Source of the DNA: Acorus gramineus
Lineage: Eukaryota > Streptophyta > Magnoliopsida > Acorales > Acoraceae
Direction of reading: 5' to 3'
DNA length: 64,000 nt
Assembly: GCA_030737835.1 (NCBI GenBank)
Contig: CM060854.1
Span: forward strand, 11,527,272 to 11,591,271
The notes under the pieces were generated by a model. It was not told the origin of the DNA. It saw only the letters and a list, made by a program, of their open reading frames with translations, and did not search any database. Numbering within the stretch: position 1 is the stretch's first letter; each line of letters begins with the position of its first letter. Below, piece after piece: positions 20,473 to 59,419 of the stretch. A program made the position numbers and the translations under genes.

Positions 20473-20570
20473 CACTCGTAAAACCCGTACAACACAAGCA
20501 CATATCCCCGAAGCACATGAAATTTCATCGGTATCCACTTCGCCAACTTCTGATTGATGAAGAGAATCGA

Positions 20571-26980: not shown

Positions 26981-29649
26981 TGTTATATATGTGTCACTTT
27001 TATCCTTCTGGTCACCATTGGAGCATTTTGGCAGTTTTTCAACTTTTTCTTTTTTCGATCGGAACCGCTAAAATTTTGGACTTTTAGCTATCATCCTGAG
27101 CTTGAGGACTCCGATTGAAAATCTAACTGCATATTATGTGTCCTGGTGCCATTTCAAGCCACTCACAAAAATTTCATCGAATTCCGGTAACGTTTCAAAA
27201 TTTTGCAGTTCCAAATCGTATCCGGGTTTTGACCAAGCAAAAAGTCATTGGGAGACTTGACTTGGTCAATGTTAACCCTTGACTTGGTCAATTGGGTTTG
27301 TTTTCTAGTGTGGTTGGGTTGACTAAGGTCAAAGCTCACTTAAACCTAACTAAACCTAGCTAAACCTAATTAAGTGAGTGTGAGTGGTATGTGTGTGTGT
27401 GTGTGGTGTGTGTGTGTGGCTTTAAGTGAAGTCCACGCCCACACTTGTGCCCTCCCTATTCATCTTCTTCTCCATCTCTCTCAAGCTCTCTCATCTTCTC
27501 TTTAATTCCCACTTTTGATCTAGTAGGAGTGCTTGAACAAGAAGAAACCCTAGAAGGAGAAAAGTTTGGTAAGGACCCGATCTATCTTCCTATGGTCTTG
27601 GATCTTCATTCCCCTTATGTAACCTCCTCTCTTACCTCCTTTTCTCCTCTGTTTTAAGCCCCTTTTAGGCTGAGAAGAGGGCTTGGTGGTGGTGGTCTTG
27701 GTGGTGGCAAATCGGTGCGCGAAGAGCACCCGAATTCCTCCCCTTCCCTTCTTCTCTTTGGGTAAGCTTTCCTCCTCCCTTTTTCTTGTGTAGATGCTTG
27801 TTTAGGGTTGCATATGGGTATGCATGGCATGCATGGTGGTTGGGGGTGCTGTTGGGGGCTGTTGGCGGTGTGGGAGTGGCTCGGGCGTGCATGCGGGGTC
27901 ATCCGCGCGCGTGCGAGCGAACCTGCGTGCGCAGGTAAGCGCAGGTAGGCGCAGGCGCGCAGTCGGGCGCGTTGGCGGGCGTGCGCGCGTACGCGCGGGC
28001 TGTACGTGCGGGCGTGCGAGCGGGTGTTGCGCAGGGGGGCGCAGTGCGCGCGGGGGTACTGCGCTGGGGCGCAGTGCGTGCGGGTGTGCGCGCGAGGTGC
28101 TGCGCTGGGGCGCAGTGCGCGCGGGTGCACCCGGGGCTGGACGCGGTGCGCGCGGGCGCGAGCGTGCGCGCGCGCGGCAGCGTGTCTGGGCGCGCATGCG
28201 TGCGCACCCGTGCGTGTGCGTGCGGGTGGCCGTGCGCATGGCTGCCCAGGGGTGCGGAGTGTGTCGGGGCACTCGGGCTCGCGTGCGTACGGGCCGTATG
28301 CATGCTTGTCTGAGTGTTGGGTATTTTTATCGTATTTCTTGAGCATTTGTGTATTTTACTCACCATTTTGGTTTCCCATGTCTTGCAGATCTTGACGAGC
28401 GGTCACGTGACGACCTGGGTATTGGTGAGTGGGACAACCCAACCCAGTTGGGAGGCGTTCGATGCACGTAGGCGTGCATTGCCCTCCCCTGGGGCCCATA
28501 ATTGCATATTAGATAGTATTAATTGTAAACTATGCATGCATGATTATTATGTAGTATCCATGCCACCCTAGGCCTTGCATGTTAGGGATATGCACCCTTA
28601 TGATATGTGTAAAGGCCCAAGCATCCTGATACCATGTTTTCATGCTAGGGAAGCCTCGACCTACGCATGCGTCCCATTTAGTTTAATTTATTTAAATCAA
28701 ATGCGAGTTTTGTAATTAGCATGCCTTAGAGAATATTATAACCTTGTGGTTATAATATATGCTTCCCCGCATCTTAGTTATGCGCCCTGGAGGAATTCTG
28801 AAGAATTCATGACATTTGTAGAGTTGAGATCGGTGTCGGCAGATCCAAGTGGATCGTATCCGTGTGGGTAGGCTGTTTCTCTTCCCTTCGTTGGATCCGT
28901 GTAGGGACTCCTCAGCGTTAGACAGGCCGTCCTGACAGAGGGCTCCCATCAGTAGGCACCTCCTGATTTGGTTTCGGACTGTGCTGAATCGTGGGAGTAG
29001 ACCAGGCGAGCTACGGTGTGGAGGAGAGGCTATCGGTGGACCAAGGGTGATTAACAGCCTAGTCAGTCCCAAAAGACCATGTCACCAGTTTGAGGGTGAG
29101 GGTGTAGTGGGTTGGCGATGAGCGACCCACTGGATTGTGTAGTTATTGCCACTTAGAGGCTATAAATGATTTGAGGTTAATATGAATTGTGATGCATGGG
29201 TTGTGCTATTCACTGAGCGTGTGGCTCACCCTCGCATATATTTTTCTCCAGTGATATCTGAGTCGGATCAGCAGGAGGAGCTCCCCGAGGCACGTCAACA
29301 GTAGCGGAGCAGCGTCACGTTCTTCGTGTGAGAGGCCATTCAGCATCCCCCTTTTGCTTGTATGTATTGTATTCCGTGCTTGAGCACGCGTTTGTATTAT
29401 ATTTGGATGTCGTGTATATATTGGCTCTCACAGGACAGTTGATTATGTATCGAGTCTGTAATATGTCTTTGAATTACAGACTCAGTCTTTTAGCTTCCGC
29501 TATTTGTGTACATATTATGTCAGCCTCTTTGTTGTCTGTGTTGTCATTGTTGATATTGTTTTGGAGTATATTATCGACCTCTTGTATAGACTGCTGATAT
29601 CATATATACCATTGCCGCGTCCCGGGGACGGCCGCCCTGGGGCGTGACA
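26981..29649 (+). mobile_element. Solo LTR, family A, TSD TAATA
   Basis: It starts TGTTATATATGTGTCAC and ends CTGGGGCGTGACA, with TAATA at 26976-26980 and 29650-29654. Length is 2669 bp. Predicted layout: exon 1 ending at about 27760 (TTTGG|GTAAGC), intron 1 27761-28388, 36-nt microexon 28389-28424, intron 2 28425-29251, then exon 3. Intron 1 is very GC-rich (27890-28260). A (GT)n run lies at about 27390-27420. It interrupts the Copia element. Confidence 0.93.
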
Positions 29650-34000: not shown

Positions 34001-37000
34001 AATCCCATCTTGATTTAAATAAATTAAACTAAATGGGAACATGCATAGGTCGGGGCTTTCCAATCAAAAGGACATGGTGACTAAACATGCATAGGCCGCT
34101 ATACATGATATAAGGGTGCATATCCCTAGCATACAAAGTCTAAGGTGGCATGGATATATCATATTAATCATGCATGCATAGCTTTTACATATTAGTTAGG
34201 GGGCCCCATCGATGCGCGACGCGCGTCTATGCGGGTCGAGCGCATCCCTAGAGAGGGGGGGGGGAGATTGGAATCAAACCACTCACCTTACGACCCGGGA
34301 CCTCGCGCATCCCATCCGACGAGATCTGCAAGGTAGGGGCATCCAACTGGTGAGAAACAACACAATTTACACATAGAAATCATTAGAAATACCCAATACT
34401 CGGACAAGCATGCATACGGGCTCGCACGCATGCGAGCACACACGTACGCACGCGAGTCCGAGTGCCCCGACACCTACCCGAACACTTGGGCAGCCACACG
34501 CATGGCCCCCCGCACGCGCACGCACCCACCCCAGCACCATCGGCGCACTGCGCGTCCAGCCCACGCGCCCTCGCGCAGCACCCCGCGCACGCCCCAGCAC
34601 GCGCACGCACGCGCGCGCGCGCACGCGCCCGCCCAGGTCCCCTGCCCGCGCGCGCGCACGCCCGGCGCACCCCGCTCGCGCCACGCTCGCGCGCACCCCC
34701 GCTCGCACCCCCGCTCGCACCGCCTGACTCTCGCCTACACCCGCGCGCGCGTCTGCTCACGCGCGCAGACTGCGCCCAGCGCGCGCCCAGCCCATCCTAA
34801 CCTCTTTTTAACCCTTCCCAACCCCTCACACACACCCTAACCCATCTACCTAGCATGCATGACTTTCCCACAACCCCTTAAGCCATAAAAACCAAGAAAA
34901 GAAGGGGGGGGTGCTCACCTTGGAGGGGGAACAAAAGGGGGAGGTTCGGGGGCCCTCGACGCACCCGCGACCACCTCAACCGCCACCACCACCACCACCA
35001 CCACCTCAGCCCTCCTCAGCCCTCCGATGGCTGCAAATCGGGGGGGGGGGGGAAGATCATGAGAAAGGGAGCTTGAGAGAGAGGGGAACAAACAACAACA
35101 ACCAAACCAGCCTTCTCTTCCTTCTCCACCATCTCCTTCTCTTCCTCTTTGAGGCATAACAACAAACACTTGGTGGGGCTTTGGAAAAAGAAAAGAGAGG
35201 GCAAGAAAGCTAGGCGTGGACATTTGGGAGGGGAGAGAGAGAGGAAGATATTTATGCACAAATATCTTAAGGAGAAAAGACCTAGTCGCCCTTTGACCAG
35301 AAATTCTGCGCATGCTTCACTGGAACAGCCATAACTTCCTCAATATAGCTCCGAATTGCACAATTCCAAGTCCGTTGGAAATCCAAGAGGATTATCTACA
35401 ACTTTCATGTTTATGCCAAGATCAAATAATCCCTCTAGCTAATCCGAAATTAGAGCTAAACATCAAGCAGGGCTGCTGCCAGAATTTCCCTCCCCGGGTA
35501 TACTTGGAAAATACCCATAACTTTTACTACAAGAATCCAGTTGATCTAATTCCACTTCTGAACGAAAGCTAACTCAAAACTGGACATCTCATAGTAAACT
35601 CATATTTAAACCTCTTCATCTTGGATTTTAACAAAATCAAATCCAAATACATAACTTCTAGGAAAAATTATGTAGCCAAATTTTAAATCAGAGCGCTCCA
35701 AATGACACAGGCACAACAGATACTACATAACTACGACGCTCTTAGAATACATGGAGCACGACTACGTGTATTACGCGCTTCCTAAGTGGGTGGATTGAAC
35801 CACTCACCGTTACCCGGATCATCGCGAGTTCTGTCAACGAAAGCTACAAAACACAACCAATGATGCTCAATTAAAATATGAAGTCTCCTGACACACATAC
35901 AAACCAACTTCATGAAGAAAATAACTCTTGATGGTTCTCACATCATGCATAATGACTCTTTCACACACAATCATGCAAAACTGGTACATCTACTACAACC
36001 AGCCATAAACATTAATCTCCACAACACCAAATACACATCCAATAATTCTATAATAAATCATACACATTCTATGATATGTTGGCATCATAATATGTGCAGA
36101 CATCATAACCTGATTTAACCTCTACGTTCCCGAAATAAAATATTTCAGATATTGGTCATTTCCCGTGCGAATCTGGATAGTCCACGCAAATCAGATGATA
36201 ACTTACAACACAGATAATATTATGACACCAAATTTCATATATAACATCTAGACATATGGATGATCATATCATATGAAGATACAATCCTGAAGATATGTCT
36301 CTAAGTACTAGTTTTACAGAAATCTGCTTTACTATAACACAAAACTTCCAACAATAAGAAAAGGGTAAAACACATACAACAGCACCTATGCATCCTTGCT
36401 GACCACCCAAAGCACTAGATAACAACACTCATAATTCATTGAAGCATAAACACAAACACTTATATGACACAAAGGGGAAACAAACATACCATGAGAAGAA
36501 GAGGGGAAAAGGATGCACACAAGGGATTCCACCACCACCACAAGCAATCAATCCATCACACATGCATAGCCATAACCACCACTAGATCAACACCCTCACA
36601 TAAGCCAAAACAAACAATGAGGTTAAAAGAATGCCATGGAAAAGAAGAGGGAGGTGGGGGAAATACAAGGTTCACACACACTCACCATCCTTTTCACTCT
36701 TCCTTCATTTCCTTCTCTTCATCTTCATTTGCACCACCAAAATCACACACAAAAGGGGGCTGACCTAGAGAGAATGAGACGGGGAGAGAGAGAGAGAGAG
36801 AAATTAAACTCAATTTAGGGTTTGGAGAGTGTGAGACGGGGGCAAAAGATATACAAATGAGTTTGGTGTAATGAGGTAAAGAGGGGGTATACTTAGACTT
36901 ACACTCACCTCTAATAGAGACATTATGAACAAAGGGTTGGAGAATGGGGTGATACTTGCCTAGAGTCACCACCCACCCAATCAAAGAACCAACCAAAACC

Positions 37001-39962: not shown

Positions 39963-42900
39963 ATGCCTCCTCACAGAGGACGGCGCGGACGTGGTCCCTC
40001 TCTACCTTTGGAGGTTTTCGGACCTACCAGAGGCGAGGATGCTACTGGAGAGTCCTCAGCCGTGAGGCCAGGATCGGCGCAGGAGCCTCCTGCCTGGGAG
40101 CGCGCGTTCGCGTGGATAGCGGATTTGGTGGAGACTCAGACCAGGGCATTGGAGGCCCAGACGAGAGTATTGGCTGAGCAGGCTAGAGAGATTCAGGAGC
40201 TGAGGGCGGCCCGTGATGCAGTTCCACAGGTCCCCTTGGTGGCAGATCTGTCTGTGGTACCCGATGTACCCCAGTCCCCGTGGTGGTTCCGGTGGTGAGA
40301 GTTCAGGATCCCCAGGAGAGGGAGGTGGGGCTAGAGGCTGCAGCGCGAGTGTAGCAGAGCAGCCTCACTGCCTTTCTGAAGCTCCACCCTCCCGAGTTCT
40401 ATGGCCAGACGACGGATCCCCTTGCCCCAGAGCGTTGGTTGATGGAGGTGGATGCGATCTTCTCGACCATGCTTTGCACCGACCGCCAGCGAGTCTCCCT
40501 GGCCACTTTTATGCTGAAGGGTAGCGCCGCCGACTGGTGGGCTACCCGATCAGTGGATATCCCCGAGGGAGTGGAGCAGCTTACATGGGCGGGATTCCAG
40601 AGGTATTTCTTGGAGGAGTACTTCCCGTTCTTGACGTGCTAGATAGTGATGCAGGAGTTTGAGCAGCTGACGCAGGGCTCTATGTCTGTCGCTGACTACT
40701 CCACGCGCTTCACGAGGCTGTCCAGATTCGCTCCAGCCTTGGTGATGGACGAGGAGACGAGGTGCCGTCGTTTTGAGCTTGGTCTCAGCAGCGCCATTCG
40801 GGTGCATGTCACCTCCCAGGCATTCACGAGGTACTCTGACTTGGTGTCTCGGGCGAAGACAGTCGAGCGAGACCTCGGGATCCTCGTGAGGGTTTCGACC
40901 CCTTCTGCAGACCAGAGGCCTCCCAGGAGCCAGGACCAGGGACAACGCAAGAAGAAGAGGCCCCGCTTTGATCAGTTAGCGGCTGCCTCTCCTCCAGCAG
41001 ATGTGGTGCCAGCGCGAGGTCCAGCACCCATCGCGGCAGTGCCAGTCCAGTCCAGGCGACCGGAGACGCGGCGCTGTTACCACTGTCAGCGCATCGGGCA
41101 TATCTTGTATAATTGCCCCGATGCTGGCCGACCCCGCGTGCTGCCTCCGCAGCAGCAGCAGCAGTTACAGCAGCAGCAGTTCCAGCAGCAGCCTCAGCGC
41201 CAGCAGCAGCAGCAGCCTCAGCGCCAGCCGCAGCAGCAGCCTCAACGTCAGCAGCAGCAGCCACAGGGTGGCCGTGTTGACCAGAGGAGGCAGCTGTTAT
41301 ATATGTGTCACTTTTAGCCTGCTGGTAACCGTTGGAGCGTTCTAGCAGTTTTTCATTTTTTTTTTGTTTTCGATCGGTACCGCTAATTTTTGGACTGTTA
41401 GCTATCGTCCTGAGTTAGAGGACTCTGATTGGAAATCTAACTGCATATTTGGTGTCCTGGTGCCATTTTAGGCCTCTCACGAAAATTTCATCGAATTCCA
41501 GTAACGTTTCCAAAATTTCACAGTTTCGGGGCGTATCTGGGTTTTTAAGTGACCCGGCTATATAAGGTGGGTGAGAAAATATCTTGGGCACTATTCATCA
41601 TCCCTACCATTTGGATTTTCTCTCTCCCCTCTCTCCGTTTCTCACTTTTGAGCCCCCTAGACCCCTCAAACCTAAAAACCTAAAGCATAGGAAGTGTATA
41701 TCGGGTCCCGATCTACACCCCGGTGCTTTCAAATCCCGATTCCGGCGAGATTAGCCCCTCCGTCCCCCCCCTCTTCTCCTCTGTTTTGGGCTGTTTCGAA
41801 GGCTGAGTGAGATCCGGGCGGTGGAAGCCTTTGGGGAAAGGTTTCGGCGCGTGGAGAGCAACCGGATTTCCTTTCCTCCCCTTGATCTTGACGGACGGTC
41901 GCGCGACGACCCGGTTTCTGATGAGTGGGACAATCCAACCCAGTAGAGAGGCGTTATACGCACTTGGGCGTATACCGGCCTCTCCTGGGGCACCATGGAT
42001 TTATATTAACCTACTGTAATGTGTATTCCATGCGAGCATGATTTAAATGTAGAATGCATGCTACCCTAGACTTTGCATGTTAGGGACTTGCACCCCTAGG
42101 ATATGTGTATGAGCCATGCATCATGTCCCCCTGTTCTCATGCTAGGAAGCCTTGGCCTATGCATGTGTCCTACTAGTTTATTTATTAAATTAAATGCTAG
42201 TGTATGACAAACTGCATGCCTTAGATAATATTATAGGGAGGAGCCTTGCGAGGTCAACACTGAGACCTGGGTTAGGGTACTCCGTGTTCCTTGTTTGGTT
42301 GTCGGGGTGTCCTGTATCGGGAACTCACGATGCCCTCCCAAGGTTTCTTGTCCCAATAATATTATAAGAAATGTTATACCAAATTATATGATTATTAGCA
42401 TATTTAGTGAATATTATAGGGGAGGGGCCTCGCGAGGACAGCGGTGAGACCCGGGCTAGGGTACTCCGTGTTCCTTGTTTGGTTGTCAGGGTGTCCTATA
42501 TCGGGAACTCACGCTGCCCTCCCAAGTTTCTTTCCCCCAGTAATATTCCACCCTTGCTAATTATTGTACATGTTCCTCGCATATGGGTTATGCGCCTTGG
42601 ATGAATTCTGAGGAATTCAGGACATTAGAATTGTAGAGATGCGTTGTCGGCGGATCCGAGTGGATCATATGCGTATGGATAGGCTGTTCTGTCCCCTTCG
42701 TTGGATCCGGTAGAGGCTGCCCCAGCGTTAGAAAGGCCGTCTCCTCCCGATATTTGTGACGGACTGTGCTGAAGTTGTGGGGGTGATAGCCCAGCGGCCT
42801 ACGGAGTGGAGGAGAGACTATCGGTGGACCAAGGGTGACCAACAGCCTAGTCAGGCCCAAAATCCTATGTCACCCGTGGAAGGGTGAGGGTGAGGGTGTA

Positions 42901-43690
42901 GTGGGTTGGCGATGAGCGACCCATTGGAGTTGTGATTGGATGGTTATCAATCCCAAAATCCTATGTCACCCATTGAAGGGTGAGGGTGAGGGTGTAGTGG
43001 GTTGGCGAGTGAGCGACCCACTAGTTTGAGTATTTGTTACCATTTTGTGGTTGTTAATAAGAGATTGTGGATTATTAAGATTTGGATAGTGGTCAATATT
43101 GTCTGTGATGCATGGGTTGTGCCGTTCACTGAGCGTGTGGCTCACCCCTCGCATATTTTTTTCCCAGTTGCCACTGAGCCTGAGCTGGAGCCGGAGCAGC
43201 AGTTGGAGCTTTCCGAGGGATTCCTTCAGTAGCGGAGCAGCGCCACGTTCCGCGAGTGCCAGAGACTATCAGCATCCCTTCTTGACTGTATGTATTTTAT
43301 TTCCGTGCTTGGCACGCGTCTGTGTATATTCAGTTGTATTGGTGTATATTGGCTCTCACAGGACAGATGATTGAGTATCGAGTCTGTAGTATGTTTATTT
43401 ACAGATTCAGTCTTTTGCTTCCGCATTTGGTGTATATATCATGTCAGCCTCTTTGTTGTCTGTGTGTCATTCTGGTTGTTTGTGTATGATATATTATTGA
43501 CCTCCTGTGTAGATTCTGATATTATATATACACTTGCCGCGTCCCGGTGACGGCCGCCCTGGGGCGTGACAGCAGCTAGCGCAGCCGGCGAGGCGTGCCC
43601 CTGCTCCTCAGCCACAGTTTGTTCAGGGCCGAGTGGCAGCGCTTTCGGCAGAGGAGGCTCAGGCATCAGGCAGCGTGGTCCGAGGTATTG
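39963..43690 (+). pseudogene. Chromovirus gag, broken and split by a solo LTR
   Basis: It starts MPPHRGRRGRGP at 39963. A frameshift occurs near 40290, TAG stops lie at 40352 and 40640, and the frame is then open to 41294. Core motifs are FLKLHPPEF, DPLAPERWL and ATFMLKGSAADWW (about 40370-40540), a CX2CX4HX4C knuckle CYHCQRIGHILYNC (about 41075-41115), and a Gln-rich tail. After the solo LTR and its TSD GCAGC, reading resumes at 43572 with [16 protein letters not shown]. The intact nested gag (48649-50031) shows both TAGs to be CAG codons originally. Confidence 0.9.
41295..43571 (+). mobile_element. Solo LTR, family A, intron-1-less, TSD GCAGC
   Basis: It starts TGTTATATATGTGTCAC and ends GGGGCGTGACA; GCAGC lies at 41290-41294 and 43572-43576. 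Length is 2277 bp, about 0.75 kb shorter than its relatives. CTATATAAGG at about 41568 is a good TATA box. Exon 1 ends CCTCCCCTTG (41884) and is joined directly to the microexon (41885-41920), with no intron 1. Intron 2 is present (41921-43167), but its donor is ATGAGT instead of GTGAGT. Two copies of a CGCGAGGACAGCG...CCGTGTTCCTTG module lie at about 42230-42345 and 42420-42540. Confidence 0.93.
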
Positions 43691-45440: not shown

Positions 45441-46029
45441 TGTTATATATGTGTCACTTTTAACCTGTTGGTAACCGTTAGAGCGCCCTGGCAGTTTTAA
45501 AAATTTTTAGGGTTTTTGGTCGGAACCGCATAATTTCAGACTGTTAGCTATCGTCTGAGTTAGAGGACTCCGATTGGAAATCTAACTGCATATTTGGTGT
45601 CCTGGTGCCATTTCTGACCTCCCACGAAAATTTCATCGAATTCTGGCATCGTTTGCAAAAATTTCGCAGTTCCGGGGCGTATCCGGGTTTTTAAGTCGCG
45701 CTCTACTTAAAAGAAATCAAAAATCACCTCGTCACTATTCATCATCCCTCCCGACGTGATTTCCTCTCTCCTCTCCTCCGATTTTCTTCCGTTTGAGCCC
45801 CCTACACCCCTCAAAATCAAAAACCTAAAGCACGGGAAGTGTAGATCGGGTCCCGATCTACGCTCCGGTGTCTTCAAATCCGAATTCCGACGACTTTAGC
45901 CTCCCCGACCTCCCCTCTCTCTCCTCTGTTTTGGCCCATTTTGGTGGTGGAGCTAGATCGGGGCGTGAGAAGGCTTTTGGGAAGGGTTTCGACGCGTGGA
46001 GAGCGTCCGGACTTCGCTCCCTCCCCTCG

Positions 46030-46780
46030 GTAAGCCTTCTTTCCCTCCTTTTTCTTGTTTAGATGAATGCTAGGGAGGGGTTTTTGTGTTTGGGGGTGGT
46101 CGGCGGCTGTGGGGGTCGTCGGAGGGCGGTCGGGGGTGGTTGGAAGGTGGTTTGGGTGGTCTCGGGCAGTGGTGGTGGCGCTCGGGCTGCGGCAGGTCGT
46201 CCGGGCCAAGCAGCAGCAGCAGCAGCCCCGGGCGGCGCCAGGTCGGGTGCGCGCGGGCAGGCGCGCGTGCGTGCGCGGGCGCGCGGCGTGCGCGCGAGGG
46301 CGCGCGGGCCTGGTGCAGGGCGCCGGTGCTGGGCGAGCAGAGGCGGGTGCTGGGCGGCTGGCGCGCGTGGAGCAGGTCGCGCGGGCGCGCGAGGTGGCGA
46401 TGCGCGGAGGCCGCGGCGAGAGGCCGCGGTGGTGCGCGCGAAGCGCGGCGAGGTGCGCGAGGCGTGCGAGGTCCGTGCGAGGTGCGCGCGAGGTGCGGTG
46501 AGGTGGCGGAGGTGCGCGCGGGGTGTGCGCGAGGCGGGGCACTGCGTGCGGGGGCGCGCGGGGTGCTCGCGGACCGGCGCGAGGCGTGCGGGGCCCGCGG
46601 TGGCGCGTCCGGGCGGTGGCCGACCGTGCGGGTGGTTGCCGGGGGCCGTGCGGGTGGTTGCCGAGGCCGCGGGTAGTTGTTGGGGAAGTGTTGGATGCTT
46701 GTTGTGGGTTTAGGGGTGTTTATTTATGTATTTAATGATAATTGTGGATTAATACTTACCAAATAATACCTGTCTTGCAG
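46030..46780 (+). other. Predicted LTR intron 1 (GC-rich)
   Basis: Donor CG|GTAAGC and acceptor TTGCAG are conserved across copies. It is absent from the LTR at 41295-43571, exactly at these boundaries. Lengths elsewhere range from about 0.6 to 0.96 kb. Confidence 0.7.
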
Positions 46781-46816
46781 ATCTCGACAGACGGTCGCGC
46801 GTCGACCCAGATACTG
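46781..46816 (+). other. Predicted 36-nt microexon of the family-A LTR (type example)
   Basis: It is bounded by CTTGCAG and GTGAGTGGG. Equivalent blocks are at 28389-28424, 38361-38396, 41885-41920, 52998-53033 and 57929-57964 (plus) and 35808-35843 and 61516-61551 (minus), all 36 nt; 34287-34325 (minus) is 39 nt. The shared core is GACGGTCGCGCGACGACC with variants. Confidence 0.7.
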
Positions 46817-48125
46817 GTGAGTGGGACAATCCAACCCAGTCGAGAGGTGTTATACGCACTTGGGCGTATACCGACCTCTCCTGGGGCGTCTTGGATGAAT
46901 ATTAACCTGCAATAATATGTATCCATGATTGTATAATTTATGTGTAGAATGCATGCTTCCCTAGTCTTTGCATGTTAGGGACTTGCCCCTTAGGATATGC
47001 ATATGAGCCTTGCAGCATGTCCCCTGTTTACATGCTAGGAAACCCGGCCTATGCATGTGTCCTACTAGTTTTATTTTTAAATTAAATACTAGTATCTGTT
47101 GAATTGCATGTTATAGTGATTATTTTAGGGGAGGGGCCTTGCGAGGACAGCGGTGAGACCCGGGTTAGGGTACACCGTGTTCCTTGTTTGGTTGTCGGAG
47201 CGTCCTATAACGGGAACTCACGCTGCCCTCCCGAGTTGCTTTCCCCCAAGAATATTTCACCATGTTATAACCTTATGCATGTTCCCCGCATCGTAGTTAT
47301 GCGCCCTGGTGGGTTCTGAGGAATTCAGAACGTTAGAGTTGTATGTTTGGTATGATTATTAGCATGAGTAGTGAATATTATAGGGGAGGGACCTTGCGAG
47401 GACAGCGGTGAGACCCGTGTTAGGGTACTCCGTGTTCCTTGTTTGGTTGTCGGGGTACCCTGTATCGGGAACTCACGCCGCCCTCCCGAGTTTCTTTCCC
47501 CCAGTGGTATTCCAACACTGCTTTTGATTGTACTGTTTCCCCGCATCTTGGTTATGCGCGCTGGAGGAACTCTGAAGAGTTCATGACATTTGAGTTGGAG
47601 AGATGCGTTGTCGGCGGATCCGAGTGGATCATATGCGTATGGATTAGGCTGTTCTGTTCCCTGCGTTGGATCCGGTAGAGACTACCCCCAACGTTAGACA
47701 GGGCCTTCCTGACAGAGGGCTCCCATCAGTAGGCACCTCCTGATTTGGTGACGGACTGTGCTGAATGTGGGAGTAGACCAGGCGGCCTACGGAGTGGAGG
47801 GAGAGACTATCGGTGGACCAAGGGTGACCAACAGCCTAGTCAGTCCCAAAATCCTATGTCACCCATTGATGGGTGAGGGTGTAGTGGGTTGGCGATGAGC
47901 GACCTACTGGTTTGTGAATAGATGATTATCAGTCCCAAAATCCTATGTCACCCATGGATGGGTGAGGGTGAGGGTGTGGTGGTTCGGCGAAGTACGAACC
48001 ACTGGATATTGTTATGTATTGATGGCTGGATAAAATAATGGAATATTGGTAAATATTGTCTGTGATGCATGGGTTGTGCTGTTCACTGAGCGTGTGGCTC
48101 ACCCCTCGCATATGTTTTTCCCCAG
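46817..48125 (+). other. Predicted LTR intron 2
   Basis: Donor GTGAGTGGGAC and acceptor TTTCCCCAG. Just before the acceptor is the most conserved LTR block, TTCACTGAGCGTGTGGCTCA, which could hold the branch point. Confidence 0.6.
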
Positions 48126-48533
48126 TTGTCACTGAGCCTGAGCTGGAGCCGGAGCAGCAGTTGGAGCTTTCCGAGGGATTCCTTCAGTAGCGGAGCAGCG
48201 CTACGTCCGCGAGTGCCAGAGGCTATCAGCATCCCTTTCCTTGGCTGTATGTATTGTATTTTCGTGCTGAGCACGTTTGTATATGTTCAGTTATATATTT
48301 GTGTATATTGGCTCTCACAGGACGTATGATTGTGTATCGAGTCTGTAGAATGTTTATTTACAGACTCAGTCTTTTGCTTCCGCATTAGGTGTATATATCA
48401 TGTCAGCTTCTTGTCGTTGTGTGTCATTCTGGTTATTGTGTATGATATATATTGTTGACCTCCTGTGTAGTTCTGATATTTTATATACACTTGCCGCGTC
48501 CCGGGGACGGCCGCCCTGGGGCGTGACAAAAGT

Positions 48534-48546
48534 TGGTATCAGAGCC
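48534..48546 (+). other. Primer binding site of the gag-only element
   Basis: TGGTATCAGAGCC, 5 bp after the LTR. Confidence 0.92.
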
Positions 48547-48648
48547 TGGTCCTGTCAGAGCCAATTGTCTTCCTTTGCATAGAGATGAGTCCTAGGATTT
48601 CGATATGAGTATTCTGATCCTAGTGTCTGGTTTTCTTAGGGTGCTGAT

Positions 48649-50031
48649 ATGCCTCCTCGCAGAGGACGGCGCGGACGAGGTCCCTCTCGGTCTTTGGAGG
48701 TTTCCGGACCTACCAGAGACGAGGATGCTACCGGAGAGCCCTTGACGCAGGAGCCACCTGCTTGGGAGCGTGCTTTCGCTCGGTTGGCTGATTTGGTGGA
48801 GACACAGACGCGGATGATAGCAGAGCAGGCTAGAGAGATTCAGGAGCTGAGGGCGACTCGCGAGGCAGTTCCGCAGGTCCCCTTAGTAGCAGATCCGCCT
48901 GTGGTACCCGATGTACCCCCAGTCCCAGTGGCAGTTCCGGCAGTTGGAGTTGAGGATCCCCTGCAGAGGGAGGAGGAGCTAGAGGCGGCAGCGCAGGTGC
49001 AGCAGAGCGGCCTCAACGCCTTTCTGAAGCTCCATCCTCCCGAGTTTCATGGGCAGTCGGCAGATCCTCTTGCGCCAGAGCGTTGGTTGAGGGAGGTGGA
49101 TGTGATCTTCGCGGCCATGCTTTGCACCGATCGCCAGCGAGTCGCCTTGGCCACCTTCATGCTGAAGGGTGACGCCGCCGAGTGGTGGGCTACCCGAGTG
49201 GTGGACATTCCAGAGGGAGTGGAGCAGCTTTCTTGGGCGGGATTCCGGAGGTTTCTGGATGAGTACTTTCCGTTCTCGACGCGACAGCTAGTGGAGCGGG
49301 AGTTCGAGCAGCTGACTCAGGGCACCATGTCCGTCGCTGACTACTCTGCGCGCTTCACGAGTCTGTCCAGATTTGCTCCAGCCTTGGTGACGGATGAGGT
49401 CACGAGGTGCCGGCGATTCGAGCTGGGTCTCAGCAGCGCTATCCGGGTGCATGTCACTGCCCACGCTTTCACGAGGTACTCCGACGTAGTGTCTCGGGCG
49501 AAGACCGTCGAGAGAGACCTCGGGATTCAAGTGCGGGCTCCGACCCCTTCTTCAGATCAGGGTCCTTCCGGGAGTCGGGACCAGGGGCAGCGCAAGAGGA
49601 AGAGGCCCCGCTTCGAGCAGTCAGCGGCTGCCTCTCCTCCAGCAGATGCGGTGCCAGTATGGGATCCGGCGCCCATTGCAGCAGTGCCCATCCAGTCCTG
49701 GCAGCCGGAGAAGCGGCGCTGTTTTCATTGTCAGCGCATCGGGCATATCAGATACAATTGCCCAGATGCTGGCCGACCCCGAGTGCCACCTCAGCAGCCG
49801 CCGTTCTTGCAGCAGCAGCCTCAGCGCCAGCAGCAGCCAGTGCAGCCGGCGAGGCGTGCTCCTGTTCCTCAGCCGCGGTTGGTGCAGGGCAGAGTTGCAG
49901 CGCTTACGGCCGAGGAGGCGCAGCCTTCGGGTGTCATGGTTCGAGGTATCATCTTGTGTTCCCAGCTTTCTAGTATAAGGATAGTTGTGTGTGTAATTGG
50001 TGGTTATTATGCAAGTGTGTGGGGTATCTAG
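48649..50031 (+). CDS. Chromovirus Gag, intact frame, C-terminus read into foreign sequence
   Basis: A 460-residue frame starts MPPRRGRRGRGPSRSLEV. It has an N-terminal helical, Glu/Arg-rich segment (residues about 30-75), the gag core with FLKLHPPEFHGQ and ATFMLKGDAAEWWATR (about 125-185), SVADYSARFTSLSRFAP (about 228-244), and a CX2CX4HX4C knuckle CFHCQRIGHIRYNC (about 363-376). A Pro/Gln-rich linker follows. From about 49965 the frame leaves element sequence and ends 20-odd residues later, losing the protease. Gag would form the particle and package RNA. The closest relative in the window is the broken gag at 39963. Confidence 0.9.
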   Translation: MPPRRGRRGRGPSRSLEVSGPTRDEDATGEPLTQEPPAWERAFARLADLVETQTRMIAEQAREIQELRATREAVPQVPLVADPPVVPDVPPVPVAVPAVGVEDPLQREEELEAAAQVQQSGLNAFLKLHPPEFHGQSADPLAPERWLREVDVIFAAMLCTDRQRVALATFMLKGDAAEWWATRVVDIPEGVEQLSWAGFRRFLDEYFPFSTRQLVEREFEQLTQGTMSVADYSARFTSLSRFAPALVTDEVTRCRRFELGLSSAIRVHVTAHAFTRYSDVVSRAKTVERDLGIQVRAPTPSSDQGPSGSRDQGQRKRKRPRFEQSAAASPPADAVPVWDPAPIAAVPIQSWQPEKRRCFHCQRIGHIRYNCPDAGRPRVPPQQPPFLQQQPQRQQQPVQPARRAPVPQPRLVQGRVAALTAEEAQPSGVMVRGIILCSQLSSIRIVVCVIGGYYASVWGI

Positions 50032-51040
50032 ATGAGTGAGTATCAAGAGTGGTTGTTGGGTTAAGGAAGCTGGGTTTTAGCTGTCCTGGCAGTGAATTCC
50101 CATCAGTAGGTACCGCCGATGCAGTCGGAGGGGTACTGAATTTGGGAGTATGCTAGGTAGGGGCTACCCGGTAAGAGGTTATTGAATGGTGTCGCGAGCG
50201 TGGAATCGCTCTCCCCTTCGTTGGATCCGCGTAGTACAGCCCCGGCGTTAGACAGGCTCCCGGTCAGAGGACCAGGCGAGCTACGGAGCGGGGAGAGGCT
50301 ACCGGTGGACCAGGGGTAGAGAGCAGTCTAAGTCTCTCCCAAAGTCCCAAAATGTCTCCTTTCGGGAGTGAGGGTGTGGATGAGGCGAAGACGGGTCGCT
50401 CGTGACCAAATGGTTTATTCGACCATTCCCGATGATGTTGGGTTCGGTCCTGTAATGGATGATGACGCGAGTATGGTGTCGTTCTCCCCTTCGTTGGACC
50501 CGAGTAGGGACTCCTCAGCGTTAGAGAGGCCTTCCTGACAGAGGGCTCCCCTCAGTAGGCACCTCCTGATTTGGTTTCGGACTGTGCTGAATTGTGGGAG
50601 CGGACCAGGCGGCCTACGGTGTGGAGGAGAGGCTACCGGTGGACCAGGGGTAGAGAACAGTCTAAGTCTCTCCCAAAGTCCCAATATGTCTCCTGATGGG
50701 AGTGAGGGTGTGGATGAGACAAAGACGCGTCGCCTCGTGACTCGGTCGTGGTTCGACCGTTCCCATAGAGGTTGGGTCCGGTCTTGAGATGGATGTTGAA
50801 GGATATCGGTGGATGATTATCTAGATGTAGATGATCCGGTGAGGTTGGTAATGTTCTTTAATAATGATGTCTTCTTCTAGTGTTCCTTTCTGGATTAAGG
50901 GGCCTTGTGAGGTCGGCGTTGAAACCCGGACTAGGATACTTCGTGTTCCTTGTTTGGTTGTCGGGGTATCCTATATCGGGATTTCATGCTGCTTTCCCGA
51001 GGTTCTTTTCCCAGTCAAGGGATACCTTAGAAGCATCAGC
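49965..51040 (+). repeat. LTR-intron-derived patch inside the gag-only element
   Basis: 49975-50840 matches by eye the reverse complement of about 33030-33520 (GTCGCGAGCG, CGACCGTTCCCATAGA, GGATGTTGAAGGA, GATTATCTAGATGTAGATGA), i.e. intron 2 of the LTR subtype at 32351-35718, with one module duplicated. 50890-51010 carries the CGTGTTCCTTGTTTGGTTGTCGGGG module. No gene. Confidence 0.8.
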
Positions 51041-51645
51041 TGGTGATGGATCAGGTGTGAGTTTTGGTTGGAGGTTAAGGCCTTTTGGGCTGAGTGGTTT
51101 CTGGGAAGGATATCTGTGGACCCGGGTAAGACGCTTGCTATGTCGAATTGGCGTAGACCGTCGAGCCCCGCATGGATTCGGAGCTTCCGGAGTTTGGCGA
51201 GTTATTGCAGGAAGTTTGACGAGGATTCTCGAAGATAGCTGTTCCTCTTAACCGCCTTACTCGGAGGGATATCCGGTTCGAGTGGTCCCCTTCTTGCGAG
51301 GAGAGCTTCCTGGAGTTTACTCGGAGGCTCACCTTAGCGCCAATTCTTACCTCTCCGTCTTGGAGTGGTGGGTTCGCAGTGGGTAAGGGTGTGTCCGCGA
51401 TCCTGCTCACGTCATCCCGTTCGAGCCGTTCGTCTCTGAGCCGGACAGTCATTCGTGGAGCAGTAGATTGTGATCATGGACCGCCGCGTGAGGAGGCTCT
51501 GCACCAAGACCGTCCAGTTGGTCGAGGTGCGATGGCAGCACCGTTCCGGTGTTAAGGACACTTGGGAGCTCATGGAGGCCAGGTTCGACGCGTATCCGCA
51601 TCTTTCCCCTCCTAGATGTTTTTGGCGAATTTTGGGGACAAAATT
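51040..51645 (+). pseudogene. Chromovirus pol remnants in the gag-only element
   Basis: 51045-51385 corresponds to 44840-45180 of the outer element (end of RT to start of RNase H), with frameshifts. At about 51385 it jumps to the integrase C-terminus (AHVIPFE-like [11 protein letters not shown] equivalent) and then the chromodomain-like WQHRSGVKDTWELMEA (51529-51576), ending just before the purine tract. About 2.5 kb of pol is missing between the two scraps. Confidence 0.88.
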
Positions 51646-51662
51646 TCCTAAGGGGGGAATAA

Positions 51663-54600
51663 TGTTATATATGTGTCACTTTTAACCTGTTGGTAACCGT
51701 TAGAGCGCCCTGGCGGTTTTTAAAATTTTTAGGGTTTTTGATCGGAACCGCATAATTTCAGACTGTTAGCTATCGTCTGAGCTAGAGGACTCCGATTGGA
51801 AATCTGACTGCATATTTGGTGTCCTGGTGCCATTTCTGACCTCCCACGAAAATTTCATTGAATTCCGGCATCGTTTGCAAAAATTTTCCAGTTCCGGGGC
51901 GTATCCGGGTTTTTAAGTCGCGCTCTACTTAAAAGAAATCAAAAATCACCTCGTCACTATTCATCGTCTCTCCCGACGTGATTTCTCTCTCCCTCCTCCG
52001 TTTTTCTTCCGTTCAAGCCCCCTAGACCCCTCGAAATCGAAAACCCAAAGCACGGGAAGTGTAGATCGGGTCCCGATCTACACACCGGTGTCTTCAAATC
52101 CGAATTCCGACGACTTTAGCCTCCCCGACCTCCCCTCTCTCTCCTCTGTTTTGGCCCATATTGGTGGTGGAGCTAGATCGGGGCGTGAGAAGGCTTTTGG
52201 GAAGGGTTTCGGCGCGTGGAGAGCGTCCGGACTTCGCTCCCTCCCCTCGGTAAGCCTTCTTTCCCTCCTTTTTCTTGCTTAGATGAATGGTAGGGAGGGG
52301 TTTTTGTGTTTGGGGGTGGTCGGAGGCTGTGGGGGTCGTCGGAGGGCGGTCGGGGGTGGTTGGAAGGTGGTTTGGGTGGTCTCGGGCAGTGGTGGTGGCG
52401 CTCGGGCTGCGGCAGGTCGTCCGGGCCAAGCAGCAGCAGCAGCAGCAGCCCCGGGCGGCGCCAGGTCGGGTGCGCGCGGGCAGGCGCGCGTGCGTGCGCG
52501 GGCGCGCGGCGTGCGCGCGAGGGCGCGCGGGCCTGGTGCAGGGCGCCGGTGCTGGGCGAGCAGAGGCGGGTGCTGGGCGGCTGGCGCGCGTGGAGCAGGT
52601 CGCGCGGGCGCGCGAGGTGGCGAGCGCGGAGGCGCGGCGAGAGGCGCGGTGGTGCGCGCGAGCGCGGCGAGGTGCGCGAGGCGTGCGAGGCCGTGCGAGG
52701 TGCGCGCGAGGTGCGGCGAGGTGGCGGAGGTGCGCGCGGGGTGCGCGCGAGGCGGGGCGCTGCGTGCGGGGGCGCGCGGGGTGCTCGCGGACCGGCGCGA
52801 GGCGTGCGGGGCCCGCGGTGGCGCGTCCGGGCGGTGGCCGACCGTGCGGGTGGTTGCCGGGGGCCGTGCGGGTGGTTGCCGAGGCCGCGGGTAGTTGTTG
52901 GGGAAGTGTTGGATGCTTGTTGTGGGTTTAGGGGTGTTTATTATGTATTTAATGATAATTGTGGATTAATACTTACCAAATAATACCTGTCTTGCAGATC
53001 TCGACAGACGGTCGCGCGTCGACCCAGATACTGGTGAGTGGGACAATCCACCCAGTCGAGAGGTGTTATACGCACTTGGGCGTATACCGACCTCTCCTGG
53101 GGCGTCTTGGATGAATATTAACCTGCAATAATATGTATCCATGATTGTATAATTTATGTGTAGAATGCATGCTTCCCTAGTCTTTGCATGTTAGGGACTT
53201 GCCCCTTAGGATATGCATATGAGCCTTGCAGCATGTCCCCTGTTTACATGCTAGGAAACCCGGCCTATGCATGTGTCCTACTAGTTTTATTTTTAAATTA
53301 AATACTAGTATCTGTTGAATTGCATGTTATAGTGATTATTTTAGGGGAGGGGCCTTGCGAGGACAGCGGTGAGACCCGGGTTAGGGTACACCGTGTTCCT
53401 TGTTTGGTTGTCGGAGCGTCCTATAACGGGAACTCACGCTGCCCTCCCGAGTTGCTTTCCCCCAAGAATATTTCACTATGATATAACCTTATGCATGTTC
53501 CCCGCATCGTAGTTATGCGCCCTGGTGGGTTCTGAGGAATTCAGAACGTTAGAGTTGTATGTTTGGTATGATTATTAGCATGAGTAGTGAATATTATAGG
53601 GGAGGGACCTTGCGAGGACAGCGGTGAGACCCGTGTTAGGGTACTCCGTGTTCCTTGTTTGGTTGTCGGGGTACCCTGTATCGGGAACTCACGCCGCCCT
53701 CCCGAGTTTCTTTCCCCCAGTGATATTCAACACTGCTTTTGATTGTACTGTTTCCCCGCATCTTGGTTATGCGCGCTGGAGGAACTCTGAAGAGTTCATG
53801 ACATTTGAGTTGGAGAGATGCGTTGTCGGCGGATCCGAGTGGATCATATGCGTATGGATTAGGCTGTTCTGTTCCCTGCGTTGGATCCGGTAGAGACTAC
53901 CCCCAACGTTAGACAGGGCCTTCCTGACAGAGGGCTCCCATCAGTAGGCACCTCCTGATTTGGTGACGGACTGTGCTGAATGTGGGAGTAGACCAGGCGG
54001 CCTACGGAGTGGAGGGAGAGACTATCGGTGGACTAAGGGTGACCAACAGCCTAGTCAGTCCCAAAATCCTATGTCACCCATTGATGGGTGAGGGTGAGGG
54101 TGTAGTGGGTTGGCGATGAGCGACCTACTGGTTTCGTGAATAGATGATTATCAGTCCCAAAATCCTATGTCACCCATGGATGGGTGAGGGTGAGGGTGTG
54201 GTGGTTCGGCGAAGTACGAACCACTGGATATTGTTATGTATTGATGGCTGGATAAAATAATGGAATATTGGTAAATATTGTCTGTGATGCGTGGGTTGTG
54301 CTGTTCACTGAGCGTGTGGCTCACCCCTCGCACATGTTTTTCCCCAGTGGTCACTGAGCCTGAGCTGGAGCCGGAGCAGCAGTTGGAGCTTTCCGAGGGA
54401 TTTCTTCAGTAGCGGAGCAGCGCTACGTCCGCGAGTACCAGAGGCTATCAGCATCCCTTTCCTTGGCTGTATGTATTGTATTTTCGTGCTGAGCACGTTT
54501 GTATATGTTCAGTTATATATTTGTGTATATTGGCTCTCACAGGACGTATGATTGTGCATCGAGTCTGTAGAATGTTTATTCACAGATTCAGTCTTTTGCT

Positions 54601-54752
54601 TCCGCATTAGGTGTATATATCATGTCAGCTTCTTGTCGTTGTGTGTCATTCTGTTTATTGTGTATGATATATATTGTTGACCTCCTGTGTAGGTTTCTGA
54701 TATGATATATACATTTGCCGCGTCCCGGGGTTGGCCGCCCTGGGGCGTGACA
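51663..54752 (+). repeat. 3' LTR of the gag-only element
   Basis: Near-identical to 45441-48528. Intron 1 52250-52997, microexon 52998-53033, intron 2 53034-54347. Preceded by the purine tract AAGGGGGGAATAA (51649-51661). Confidence 0.95.
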
Positions 54753-56396: not shown

Positions 56397-59300
56397 TGTT
56401 ATATATGTGTCACTTTTTAGCCTTCTGGTAACCATTAGAACATTCTGGTAGTTTTTCAGTTTTTTTTGTTTTTCGATCGGAACCGCTAAAATTTTGGACT
56501 GTTAGCTATCATCCTGAGTTTGAGGACTCCGATTGAAAATCTAACTGCATATTATGTGTCCTGGTGCCATTCCAAGCCACTCTGGAAAATTTCATCGAAT
56601 TCCGGTAACGTTTTAGAATTTCACAGTTTCGAAGCGTATCCGGGTTTTGACCGAGCGAAAAGTCATTGGGAGACTTGACTTGGTCAAAGTGGGCCCATGA
56701 CTTGGTCAACCCCCTTTTGTTTTCTAGTGTGGATGGGTTGACCTAAGTCAAATTGCACTTAAACCCCCCTAATCCTAGCCTAAACCTAATTAGGGCTAAT
56801 CTAATTAGGGGTGTGAGTGTGTGTGGAGTGGGAGTGAGGATAAATAAATCCCACGACTTCAAACCCCTCACTATTCATCATCTTCTCCAATTTTTCTCTC
56901 TCTCTCCCTCTCTTTAAAACCTCCATGTGACCTAGTTCAAGTGGTCAAAACCAAAAACCCTAAGAAGAGAAAGGTTAGATCTTGTCCCGATCTATCTACC
57001 GGTGGTCTCGGATTCGAGTTCCCACGTGTGTGACCCCCTCTAACGCCCTCTTTTCTCCTCTGATTTCAGCATCTTTGAGGGCTGAAGGAGATCTTGGTGG
57101 TGGTGGTCCTTGAGGAGGTGTTTCGGTGCGCGAAGAGCAACCGATCTTCCCTTCCTTCCTTTCCTTCCTTGGGTGAGGTTTCTTTCCTTCCTTTTCTTGT
57201 TTAGATGCATGTTAGGAGGGTGTTTTTGGGGATGTATGGCTGTTGGTGGCGGTTGGTGGTGGTTGGAGGCCATGGGTGGCCGTCGGGGAGGTGGGAAGGT
57301 GTCTCGGGTAGGCTGGCAGCGCAGGGAGGAAGGGCAGGCAGGCTGGCAGGCGCAGGGCAGGGCGCTGTCGGGCATGCTGGCAGGGCACGCGCGCGTGCGC
57401 GCGGGCGTGCGCGCGGGCGTGCGCTCGGGTGGAGCAGGAGGGTGCGGGTGCTGCGCGCTGGGCGCCGTGCGAGGGCGTGCGTGCGGAGCGCTGCGCAGAG
57501 GCGCAGTGCGTGCCATGCGCAGGGGGCCGCGTGCGGGTGCTGCGCGCAGGGCGCCGTGCGGGGGCGTGCGCGTGCGTGCGAAGTGCTGCGCAGAGGCGCA
57601 GGCGTGCCGTGCGCGCGCGGTGAGGCGAGCCAGTGGTGCGCGCGGGGTGCGCGCGGGGTGAGGCGTTGGGGTGCAGGGCATGCGCGGTGCACCCGGGGGG
57701 CTCGACAGAGTGTCCGGGTGTGCGGGCAGGGGGCTCGGCAGTGCACTGGGCGCGCGGGCCGGGGCTCGGCTGTGCGCCCGAGGTGGGTGGCCGTGCGTAC
57801 GGCTGCCCAGGGGTTCGGGAGTGAGTCGGGGTGCTCGGACTCGCGGGCGTACAGGCCGTATGTACGCTTGTCCGAGTGTTGTGTATTTTAATGTATTTTT
57901 GTGGTATTTGTGTTACCCTGTCTTGCAGACCTTGACGGACGATCGCGCGACGACTTAGTTATCGGTGAGTGGGACAACCCAACCCAGTAGGGAGGCGCTA
58001 CATGCACTTGGGCGTGTACGTCCTCCCCTGGGGCACCATGGTTTAATATTAACTTGTTTAATATGTAATCTATGCAAGCATGATTAATATGTAGTATGCA
58101 TGCTACCCTAGACTTTGTATGTTAGGGACTTGCACCCTTAGGATATGTGTAAGAGCCATGCATCCTGTCACCCTGTTCTCATGCTAGGAAGCCTCGACCT
58201 ATGCATGTGTCCTACTAGTTTGATTTATTAAATTAAATGCGAACTATAGTATATTAGTATGCCTTGGGGAATATTAAGGGGGCCTTGCGAGGTCAACATT
58301 GAGACCCGGGCTAGGGTACTCCGTGTTCCTTGTTTGGTTGTCGGGATGTCCTATATCGGGACCTCAGGTTGCCCTCCCAAGGTTTCTTTTCCTCATTATT
58401 ATCTTATATATTTCCCGCATCTTGGTTATGCGCCCTGGAGAAATTCTGAAGAATTCAAGACATTAGAGTTGTTGAGATGTGTTGTCGGCGGATCCGAGTG
58501 GATCATATGCGTATGGATAGGCTGTTCTGTTCCCTTCGTTGGATCCGTTTAGAGACTGCCCCAGCGTTAGAAAGGCCGCCCCGTGAGAGGGCTCCCATCA
58601 GTAGGCACCTCCTGATTTGGGACGGACTGTGCTGAATGTGGGAGTGGCCAAGCGGCCTACGGAGTGGAGGAGAGACTATCGGTGGACCAAGGGTGACCAA
58701 CAGCCTAGTCAGTCCCAATATCCTATGTCACCTATTGAGGGGTGAGGGTGAGGGTGTGGTGGGTCGGCGATGTAGCGACCCACTGGATTTGTGTAGTTAA
58801 GGGTGATTAGCAGCTTAGTCAGTCCCAATATCCTATGTCACCATATTGAGGGGTGAGGGTGAGGGTGTGGTGGGTCAGCGATGTAGCGACCCACTGGATT
58901 GTGTATTTCCTGCCACTTTGAGGCTTAATTATTTATTTGTGGTTAATATAAACTGTGATGCATGGGTTGTGCTGTTCACTGAGCCTGTGGCTCACCCCTC
59001 GCATATATATTTTTCCACAGTTATCACTGAGTCGGACCAGAAGGAGGAGCTCCCCGAGAGACTTCATCAGTAGCGGAGCAGCGCCACGTCCCGCGAGTAT
59101 TAGAGGCCATCAGCATCCTTCCTTTGATTGTATGTATTATATTTCCGTGCTTGGGCACCGTTTGTATATTATTTGGATGTATGTGTGCATATTGGCTCTC
59201 ACAGGACAGTTGATTATGTATCGAGTCTGTAGTATGTTTTTGAATTACAGACTCAGTCTTTTAGCTTCCGCTATCTGTGTATATATCATGTCAGCGTTGC

Positions 59301-59419
59301 TTTCGTCTGTGTTGTCATTTTAGTTGTTGTTTAGAGTATTTTATTGATCTCCTGTATAGACTGCTGATATCATGTATACACTTGCCGCGTCCCGGGGACG
59401 GCCGGCCTGGGGCGTGACA
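56397..59419 (+). repeat. 3' LTR of the outer chromovirus
   Basis: 3023 bp, TGTTATATATG...GGGGCGTGACA. Splice layout: exon 1 ends at about 57172 (CTTGG|GTGAGG), intron 1 57173-57928, microexon 57929-57964, intron 2 57965-59020 (acceptor TTTTTCCACAG), exon 3 from 59021. Its exon 2-3 frame includes LDGRSRDDLVIVITESDQKE. The GC-rich part of intron 1 is 57360-57790. Confidence 0.93.

Follow-up and report, generated by a model that had tools for sequence, protein, structure and literature searches.

Exact loss of an intron from a solo long terminal repeat in Acorus gramineus, very probably by reverse transcription of a spliced RNA

How can the long terminal repeat (LTR) of a retrotransposon come to lack an internal segment to the very base? 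The question is raised by an LTR at positions 41295-43571 (plus strand) of a 64,000-nucleotide stretch of contig CM060854.1 of Acorus gramineus, hereafter called the window. The LTR is 2277 bp long with the ends TGTTAT...GTGACA, and it is a solo LTR, as it stands singly between identical 5-bp target site duplications (TSDs), GCAGC, with the internal region absent. The TSD match is somewhat less telling because the flank is CAG-rich; the coordinates given by the initial annotation of this DNA proved right. At 41884/41885 of this LTR, CCTCCCCTTG abuts ATCTTGACGG with nothing between. At the same position six other LTRs of the window hold a GT...CAG segment, here called intron 1, which starts GTAAGC, GTGAGG or GTGAGC and in all six finishes TTGCAG; the annotated length of 0.6-0.96 kb agrees with the 593-956 bp found (Table 1). 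The initial annotation attributed the missing segment to a reverse-transcribed splicing event. Based on the exact junctions, the inheritance of the intronless state and the support for an ancestral intron, we consider this very probably the correct explanation: RNA spliced at intron 1 would have been reverse transcribed, with R-U5 of both LTRs taken from the RNA 5' end.

Other copies without intron 1, which the initial annotation suggested looking for, were found in the genome. The 398.6 Mb were searched with a 181-bp query spanning the joined junction, and 40 of the 3440 candidates were scored (fetched loci carry L numbers). Exons 1 and 2 were joined at 27 of these places, 26 of which match across the junction while L042 is joined in another exon-1 class. 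The other 13 keep the acceptor; the donor was also seen in 11 of them, and exon 1 was not found in L031 and in the plus strand of L041. No imprecise deletion occurred among the 40 scored places. As the query is itself intronless, 27/40 is not a genome frequency. A 20-base junction pattern gave 57 genome matches with at most three mismatches, nine of them exact, versus 10 for a reversed control, a number beyond chance. Seventeen further regions were fetched at junction matches, and 11 of them (L043-L050 and L053-L055) contain intronless LTRs, L047 holding two, while in the remaining six (L051, L052, L056-L059) the match is not the LTR junction. The comparison set thus consists of 38 intronless LTRs, the 27 scored ones and 11 from the further regions, with L055 kept apart.

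All 38 junctions lie at the splice sites, 26 reading CTTG/ATCT, 10 TTGG/ATCT, one CTTG/ATCC and one CTCG/ATCT, which bears out the claim that the deletion follows donor and acceptor to the base. The two classes of exon 1 offer an independent check on this precision. Exon 1 of class 1 ends CTTG/GTAAGC (CTCG in some copies), and the intronless copies read CTTG/ATC or CTCG/ATC. In class 2 the donor is one base later (TTGG/GTGAGG, TTGG/GTAAGG and TTTGG/GTAAGC in the three intron-bearing copies read), and all 10 intronless copies read TTGG/ATC, likewise one base further on. In a third family, represented on the minus strand of the window, the sequence is CCAAG/GTGAGC...CTTGCAG/ATCTCG. The related L055, with 89% identity to it over the 104 bp preceding the junction and 77% over the 147 bp following it, is joined as CCTTG/ATCTTG. 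When exon-2 starts in the window and the fetched loci were placed by a script tolerating one base of slack, 39 of 66 were joined, 27 followed CAG and none fell elsewhere; the 39 are probably the 38 LTRs plus one that is present in both L028 and L029. Variable endpoints, named by the initial annotation as evidence against splicing, were therefore not seen among these 66 starts.

Precision of this kind bears on two explanations at the DNA level. Chance deletion in separate copies, for example by microhomology, could draw on CTTG, which occurs upstream of the intron, close to the intron end and within exon 2. However, a deletion between these repeats would either retain CAG or take ATCTTG away; no such product occurs in the 66 exon-2 starts or the 38 junctions, and we regard this origin as very improbable. 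A precisely excising DNA transposon, rather than an intron, would account for a discrete segment that is absent from some copies, but the ends GTAAGC, GTGAGG, GTAAGG or GTGAGC...TTGCAG (TTACAG in L033) and the lack of a target duplication at the joined site make it hardly credible. With its GT donor and AG acceptor, intron 1 has the form of a spliceosomal GT-AG intron, the ends being kept and the interior variable: among 11 intron-bearing copies, mean pairwise identity was 0.64 in the intron interior, whereas the two intron ends had 0.92 and 0.91 and exon 2 had 0.92.

Intron 1, at 67-72% GC, also contains long open frames on both strands (46063-46713, 61669-62679), which is unusual for a plant intron. 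Two of these frames were searched against Pfam without a match, and the differences in intron length are not multiples of three; a gene inside intron 1 was therefore rejected.

When an LTR element replicates, the RNA 5' end serves as template for R-U5 in both new LTRs, and full-length elements without intron 1 in both LTRs were accordingly predicted by the initial annotation. Such elements exist. Intron 1 is absent from every LTR seen in L012 (outer TSD ACCAT), L018 (TTATG), L019 (AGATT) and L028/L029 (TTTCT), whose outer TSDs match, and from the three LTRs seen in L021/L025 (outer TSD AGACT; the two fetched loci lie 5.2 kb apart). The TSD comparison covered these five elements; both LTRs of L047 lack the intron as well. 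As the five TSD-matched elements lack the intron in every LTR seen, the loss is inherited. This again speaks against chance deletion, although absence from both LTRs shows inheritance and not the origin of the first loss, to which the boundaries speak. The LTR pairs of L012, L018 and L028/L029 are 97.8, 98.7 and 97.5% identical, similar to the 98.5% of an intron-bearing pair in the window, indicating that the intronless elements replicated about as recently.

Some of these loci have peculiar arrangements. The three intronless LTRs of L021 and L025 (C54, 727000-745200), with AGACT at the outer ends, are placed as if in an LTR-internal-LTR array. L027 and L028/L029 (C59) apparently share one insertion site, with the TSD TTTCT and the same right flank, the former as a solo LTR and the latter as a full element, perhaps a segmental duplication that caught solo-LTR formation. 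In L011 two LTRs stand head to head like a palindromic joint, one intronless and one with an intact acceptor.

The intronless state could instead be ancestral and the segment a later insertion, since many copies are intronless and the midpoint-rooted trees alone give no direction. The segment is, however, homologous in three LTR families, with 67.7% identity over 563 bp between types 1 and 2 (E 2e-21), 68.7% over 482 bp between types 2 and 3 (E 7e-33) and 65.5% over 264 bp between types 1 and 3 (E 8e-8), so that its presence is the older state. Furthermore, the joined form shows no duplicated target and intron-bearing copies occur throughout the tree. Intron gain is thus highly unlikely, and the ancestral intronless state that the initial annotation had listed as a possible objection is not what was found.

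The initial annotation had also asked whether the intronless copies form a clade on an LTR tree. They do not, and the state arose repeatedly. One clade was rejected both in the exon 1 + U3 tree (p 2.2e-9; 41 rows) and in the tree from exon 2 to the LTR end (p 2.2e-44; 40 rows), which need at least 7 and at least 10 state changes, respectively. It was likewise rejected on at most 330 bp each side of the junction (p 7.5e-49 and 7.1e-44), where the trees need 11 changes on the exon-2 side (59/60 rows) and 9 on the exon-1 side (55/60 rows). In a careful tree of the 3' part no fewer than 9 changes are forced by the starred branches, and intronless and intron-bearing copies are sisters there in the pairs 41295/L034 and L023/63095(-), both at 100/100, and L013/L036 and L015/L039, both at 100/99. 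The number of losses is nevertheless uncertain, because the LTRs are mosaic and changes do not equal losses.

The mosaic structure raises the question of whether one or a few spliced-RNA losses were spread by template switching or gene conversion. The nearest neighbor of the 41295 LTR does change along its length, an intronless copy being closest over the first 150 bp (97.3 vs 96.0) and over most of the final 900 bp (98.0 vs 95.9, then 98.4 vs 98.2). For L015 the closest copy is L039 in part of the 3' half but the intronless L014 at the junction, and L010, L012, L014 and L015 have common intronless neighbors around it. Intermolecular strand transfer has been described for mini-Tnt1 (PMC2923131). 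On the other hand, the junction-proximal sequence itself rejects a single clade, and type 2 copies are joined with an extra base that is peculiar to them. Beside the junction, L023 is most similar to an intron-bearing LTR, at 89.2% on the exon-1 side and 94.7% on the exon-2 side, where the best intronless copies reach 79.9% and 92.0%, respectively; an intron-bearing copy is also the nearest in every tested window except the first 150 bp. At its junction the 41295 LTR is also nearer to intron-bearing copies, clearly on the exon-2 side (98.0 vs 94.0) and barely on the exon-1 side (92.9 vs 92.1), and its exon-1 tail GATTTCCTTTCC and exon-2 tail GGTTTCTG otherwise occur only in intron-bearing copies of the alignment. 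Spread of so few losses therefore appears unlikely, though far from negligible. The sequences seem to fit best with at least five separate losses, in the class-2 group, L055, L023, the 41295 LTR and the main class-1 group; L009 is likely a sixth.

Why, then, is intron 1 lost while the rest of the leader is kept? We read the LTR leader as exon 1, a 36-nt exon 2 and exon 3, with intron 1 (0.6-0.97 kb) after the first, intron 2 (about 1.2 kb) after the second and the start of intron 3 after the third, introns 2 and 3 being predicted from sequence signals. GTGAGT follows exon 2 in 56/60 rows, two of the four exceptions being one shifted and one truncated reading. Exon 3 is preceded by a pyrimidine-rich ...CAG and extends to GTATGTAT in 37/40 copies. 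Five bases after the LTR, TGGTATCAGAGCC, which we take to be the primer-binding site (PBS) matching initiator tRNA-Met, is present in eight of the nine elements aligned and as a variant in one. All nine have CTGGTTTTCTTAG, with the predicted intron 3 acceptor, between the LTR end and gag. Counted from the LTR end, two or three ATGs come before this acceptor; the next ATG, 9 nt past it, starts the gag frame.

The predicted exons and introns differ in their ATG content, as compared with five permutations; the LTR copies are related and the counts are thus not independent. The last 280 bp of exon 1 contain 5 ATGs in 41 copies (58-209 in the permutations) and exon 3 only one in 37/40 copies (40-120), whereas 117 were counted in intron 1 (52-197) and 1405 in intron 2 (756-1043).

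The initial annotation took the ATGAGT donor of the 41295 LTR as fitting the retention of intron 2. This cannot be upheld: GTGAGT is kept in 36 of the 38 intronless copies, so ATGAGT explains nothing about retention. One search of the genome with an exon 2-exon 3 pattern revealed no copy without intron 2. It gave 26 matches, all with two or three mismatches; inspected by eye, 23 enter the start of intron 2 or a near version of it, the other three (C1 at 18790971, C8 and C63) enter sequence resembling intron 2 further inside, and none reads as exon 3. Intron 2 contains tandem units of 137-138 bp, each with one long hairpin (folding z -4.6 and -3.1). In 64 distinct units 98.6% of cells pair (1978/2007), with compensatory changes in 2/32 pairs, and Rfam gave no match at gathering thresholds. 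As the covariation is modest, a packaging role of the hairpin is only a suggestion; our guess is that intron 2 is retained owing to a packaging or dimerisation signal, or a poly(A) site, within it.

Several results weigh against the interpretation as a spliced and reverse-transcribed leader. Both genome searches favor joined copies, and exactness in the comparison set is partly selected, as resemblance to the joined junction was the main means of finding copies. Outside intron 1, much of the LTR is at least as well conserved as the splice ends (about 0.6-1.0 in 30-bp windows). The ATG argument is weaker than it looks, because exon 2 shows no clear avoidance (8 vs 2-51, with ATG in 8/60 copies) and the first 250 bp of the LTR, which belong to U3 and not to the leader, are also ATG-poor (52 vs 174 expected from base composition). 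Random partial splicing does not predict that no loss of intron 2 was found. The high GC content of intron 1 is unexpected as well, since plant introns are described as U-rich (PMC3735527).

The proposed course of events is as follows. Intron 3 would begin in U5, span the PBS and end 9 nt upstream of the gag start codon. An RNA spliced at intron 1 only would still contain the PBS and could be packaged and reverse transcribed. Minus-strand strong-stop DNA, given the presumed place of R, would then copy the spliced R-U5 from the RNA 5' end, and for this reason both LTRs of the new copy would lack intron 1 exactly and pass the state on. Intron 1 was probably lost in this way several times over, the 41295 LTR being one product that later became solo, presumably by LTR-LTR recombination. 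If all three introns were spliced out, the leader would shrink to about 460 nt, contain hardly any ATG and offer gag a clean start, but such RNA could not be copied, because the PBS would be removed with intron 3. It is a serious but still tentative possibility that splicing in the LTR leader separates messenger from genome, with intron 3 and seemingly intron 2 kept in genomic RNA and intron 1 dispensable. Splicing of intron 1 would then be repeatedly written back into the LTR, and the hairpins of intron 2 could perhaps serve as a packaging or dimerisation signal.

Table 1. Features of the solo LTR and of related LTRs in the window
Feature	Position	Strand	Basis
TSD GCAGC, left copy	41290..41294	+	sequence
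Solo LTR without intron 1	41295..43571	+	sequence and alignment
TATA box TATATAAG	41559..41566	+	sequence; transcription start inferred ~30 bp downstream
Exon 1, approximate start, ATG-poor across copies	41590..41884	+	copy comparison
Exon 1 joined exactly to exon 2, without intron 1	41884..41885	+	copy comparison
Exon 2, 36-nt microexon	41885..41920	+	copy comparison
Predicted intron 2, retained; donor ATGAGT in this copy	41921..43167	+	sequence signals
Tandem pair of strongly folding hairpin unit inside intron 2, 42227-42363 and 42410-42547	42227..42547	+	folding
Exon 3, ATG-free in this LTR	43168..43287	+	copy comparison
First part of predicted intron 3 with donor GTATGTATTT; would extend in full elements past LTR end and PBS to just before gag	43288..43571	+	signals
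TSD GCAGC, right copy	43572..43576	+	sequence
Intron 1 in LTR 45441-48528, 751 bp	46030..46780	+	alignment
Intron 1 in LTR 51663-54752 (same element as LTR 45441-48528), 748 bp	52250..52997	+	alignment
Intron 1 in type-2 LTR 56397-59419, 756 bp; exon 1 ends TTGG, donor GTGAGG	57173..57928	+	alignment
Intron 1 in type-2 LTR 26981-29649, 627 bp	27762..28388	+	alignment
Intron 1 in LTR 63095-59872, 956 bp; LTR is sister of intronless L023	61552..62507	-	alignment and tree
Intron 1 in third-family LTR, 593 bp; donor GTGAGC, acceptor TTGCAG; relative of intronless L055	34326..34918	-	alignment
Reference full-length element: AAAGT, PBS TGGTATCAGAGCC, TCTTAG (ending 48639) as predicted acceptor of intron 3, gag ATG 48649	48529..48651	+	alignment

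The surroundings of the solo LTR are nested. It interrupts a host element between the gag and the protease-reverse transcriptase regions, and the LTRs of this host are apparently a truncated copy ending at 39842 and the copy at 56397-59419 (94.2% identity over 1674 aligned positions). Within 38180-59419 this host element contains both the solo LTR and the full element 45441-54752 (TSD CTGAC). Read across the nested elements, the open reading frames of the window carry Retrotrans_gag, RVP_2 + RVT_1, RT_RNaseH and Integrase_H2C2 + SH3_Tf2-1, that is, gag, protease, reverse transcriptase and RNase H followed by integrase, the domain order of Ty3/gypsy elements. The element is suspected to be a Tekay/Del-like chromovirus. 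The vast majority of chromoviruses are reported to have a chromodomain at the integrase end (PMC6317226). No chromodomain match was obtained in the integrase reading frame at E 0.001. One reading frame directly before the 3' LTR looks chromodomain-like by eye. On the minus strand, a 36-nt stretch at 35808-35843, flanked by TTTTGTAG and GTGAGTGG, resembles exon 2, as if from another, older family of LTRs whose leader is built in the same way. An open frame with a protein phosphatase 2C domain at 19336-20583 (minus strand) is probably a host gene.

If the interpretation is true, these LTRs amount to a natural counterpart, run repeatedly, of the intron-loss assay by which reverse transcription is proved; every exact loss would mark a spliced RNA that was packaged and copied, and the splicing state of R-U5 would be heritable through both LTRs. 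Repeated loss of intron 1, set against no loss of intron 2 in one pattern search, would provide a testable map of what genomic RNA needs from its leader. A PBS inside an intron would keep messenger RNA out of replication, which bears on the division of retroelement RNA between translation and packaging. Should splicing indeed separate messenger from genome, the LTRs of one genome would be an archive of packaged splice forms.

Related arrangements are known from retroviruses. HTLV-1 and BLV have a splice donor in R, and SIVmac/HIV-2 a leader intron; as proposed here, a donor in R-U5 upstream of the PBS means that spliced RNA can be without it. We know of no report of a spliced retroviral R-U5 fixed in new proviruses, unlike in the Acorus LTRs, where it appears to have been fixed repeatedly. 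Murine SDARTs arise by packaging, reverse transcription and integration of a spliced viral RNA, but the removed part is internal and the LTR unchanged, whereas in Acorus it lies in the LTR.

Our partly narrow searches of titles and abstract openings of open-licence papers found no literature on introns inside LTRs or their loss, and the portions of two Acorus genome papers that were available mention none in LTRs (PMC10282084; PMC10281966). Among plant LTR retrotransposons, natural splicing of RNA is described for BARE1, Ogre, CRR and Bagy-2, and separate RNA pools for translation and replication for BARE (PMC3735527). These elements make spliced and unspliced RNA, as is predicted for the Acorus element; their splices lie in or between coding regions or yield env RNA, and none is said in the sections concerned to be in the LTR (PMC3735527). 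The closest likeness in process is with tobacco mini-Tnt1, where an artificial intron was spliced from the RNA before reverse transcription, resulting in new copies without it, and where template switching between RNAs, which would also fit the mosaic LTRs, was inferred (PMC2923131). While the mini-Tnt1 intron was engineered and internal, the Acorus intron is natural and lies in the LTR, and its loss is inherited and recurrent.

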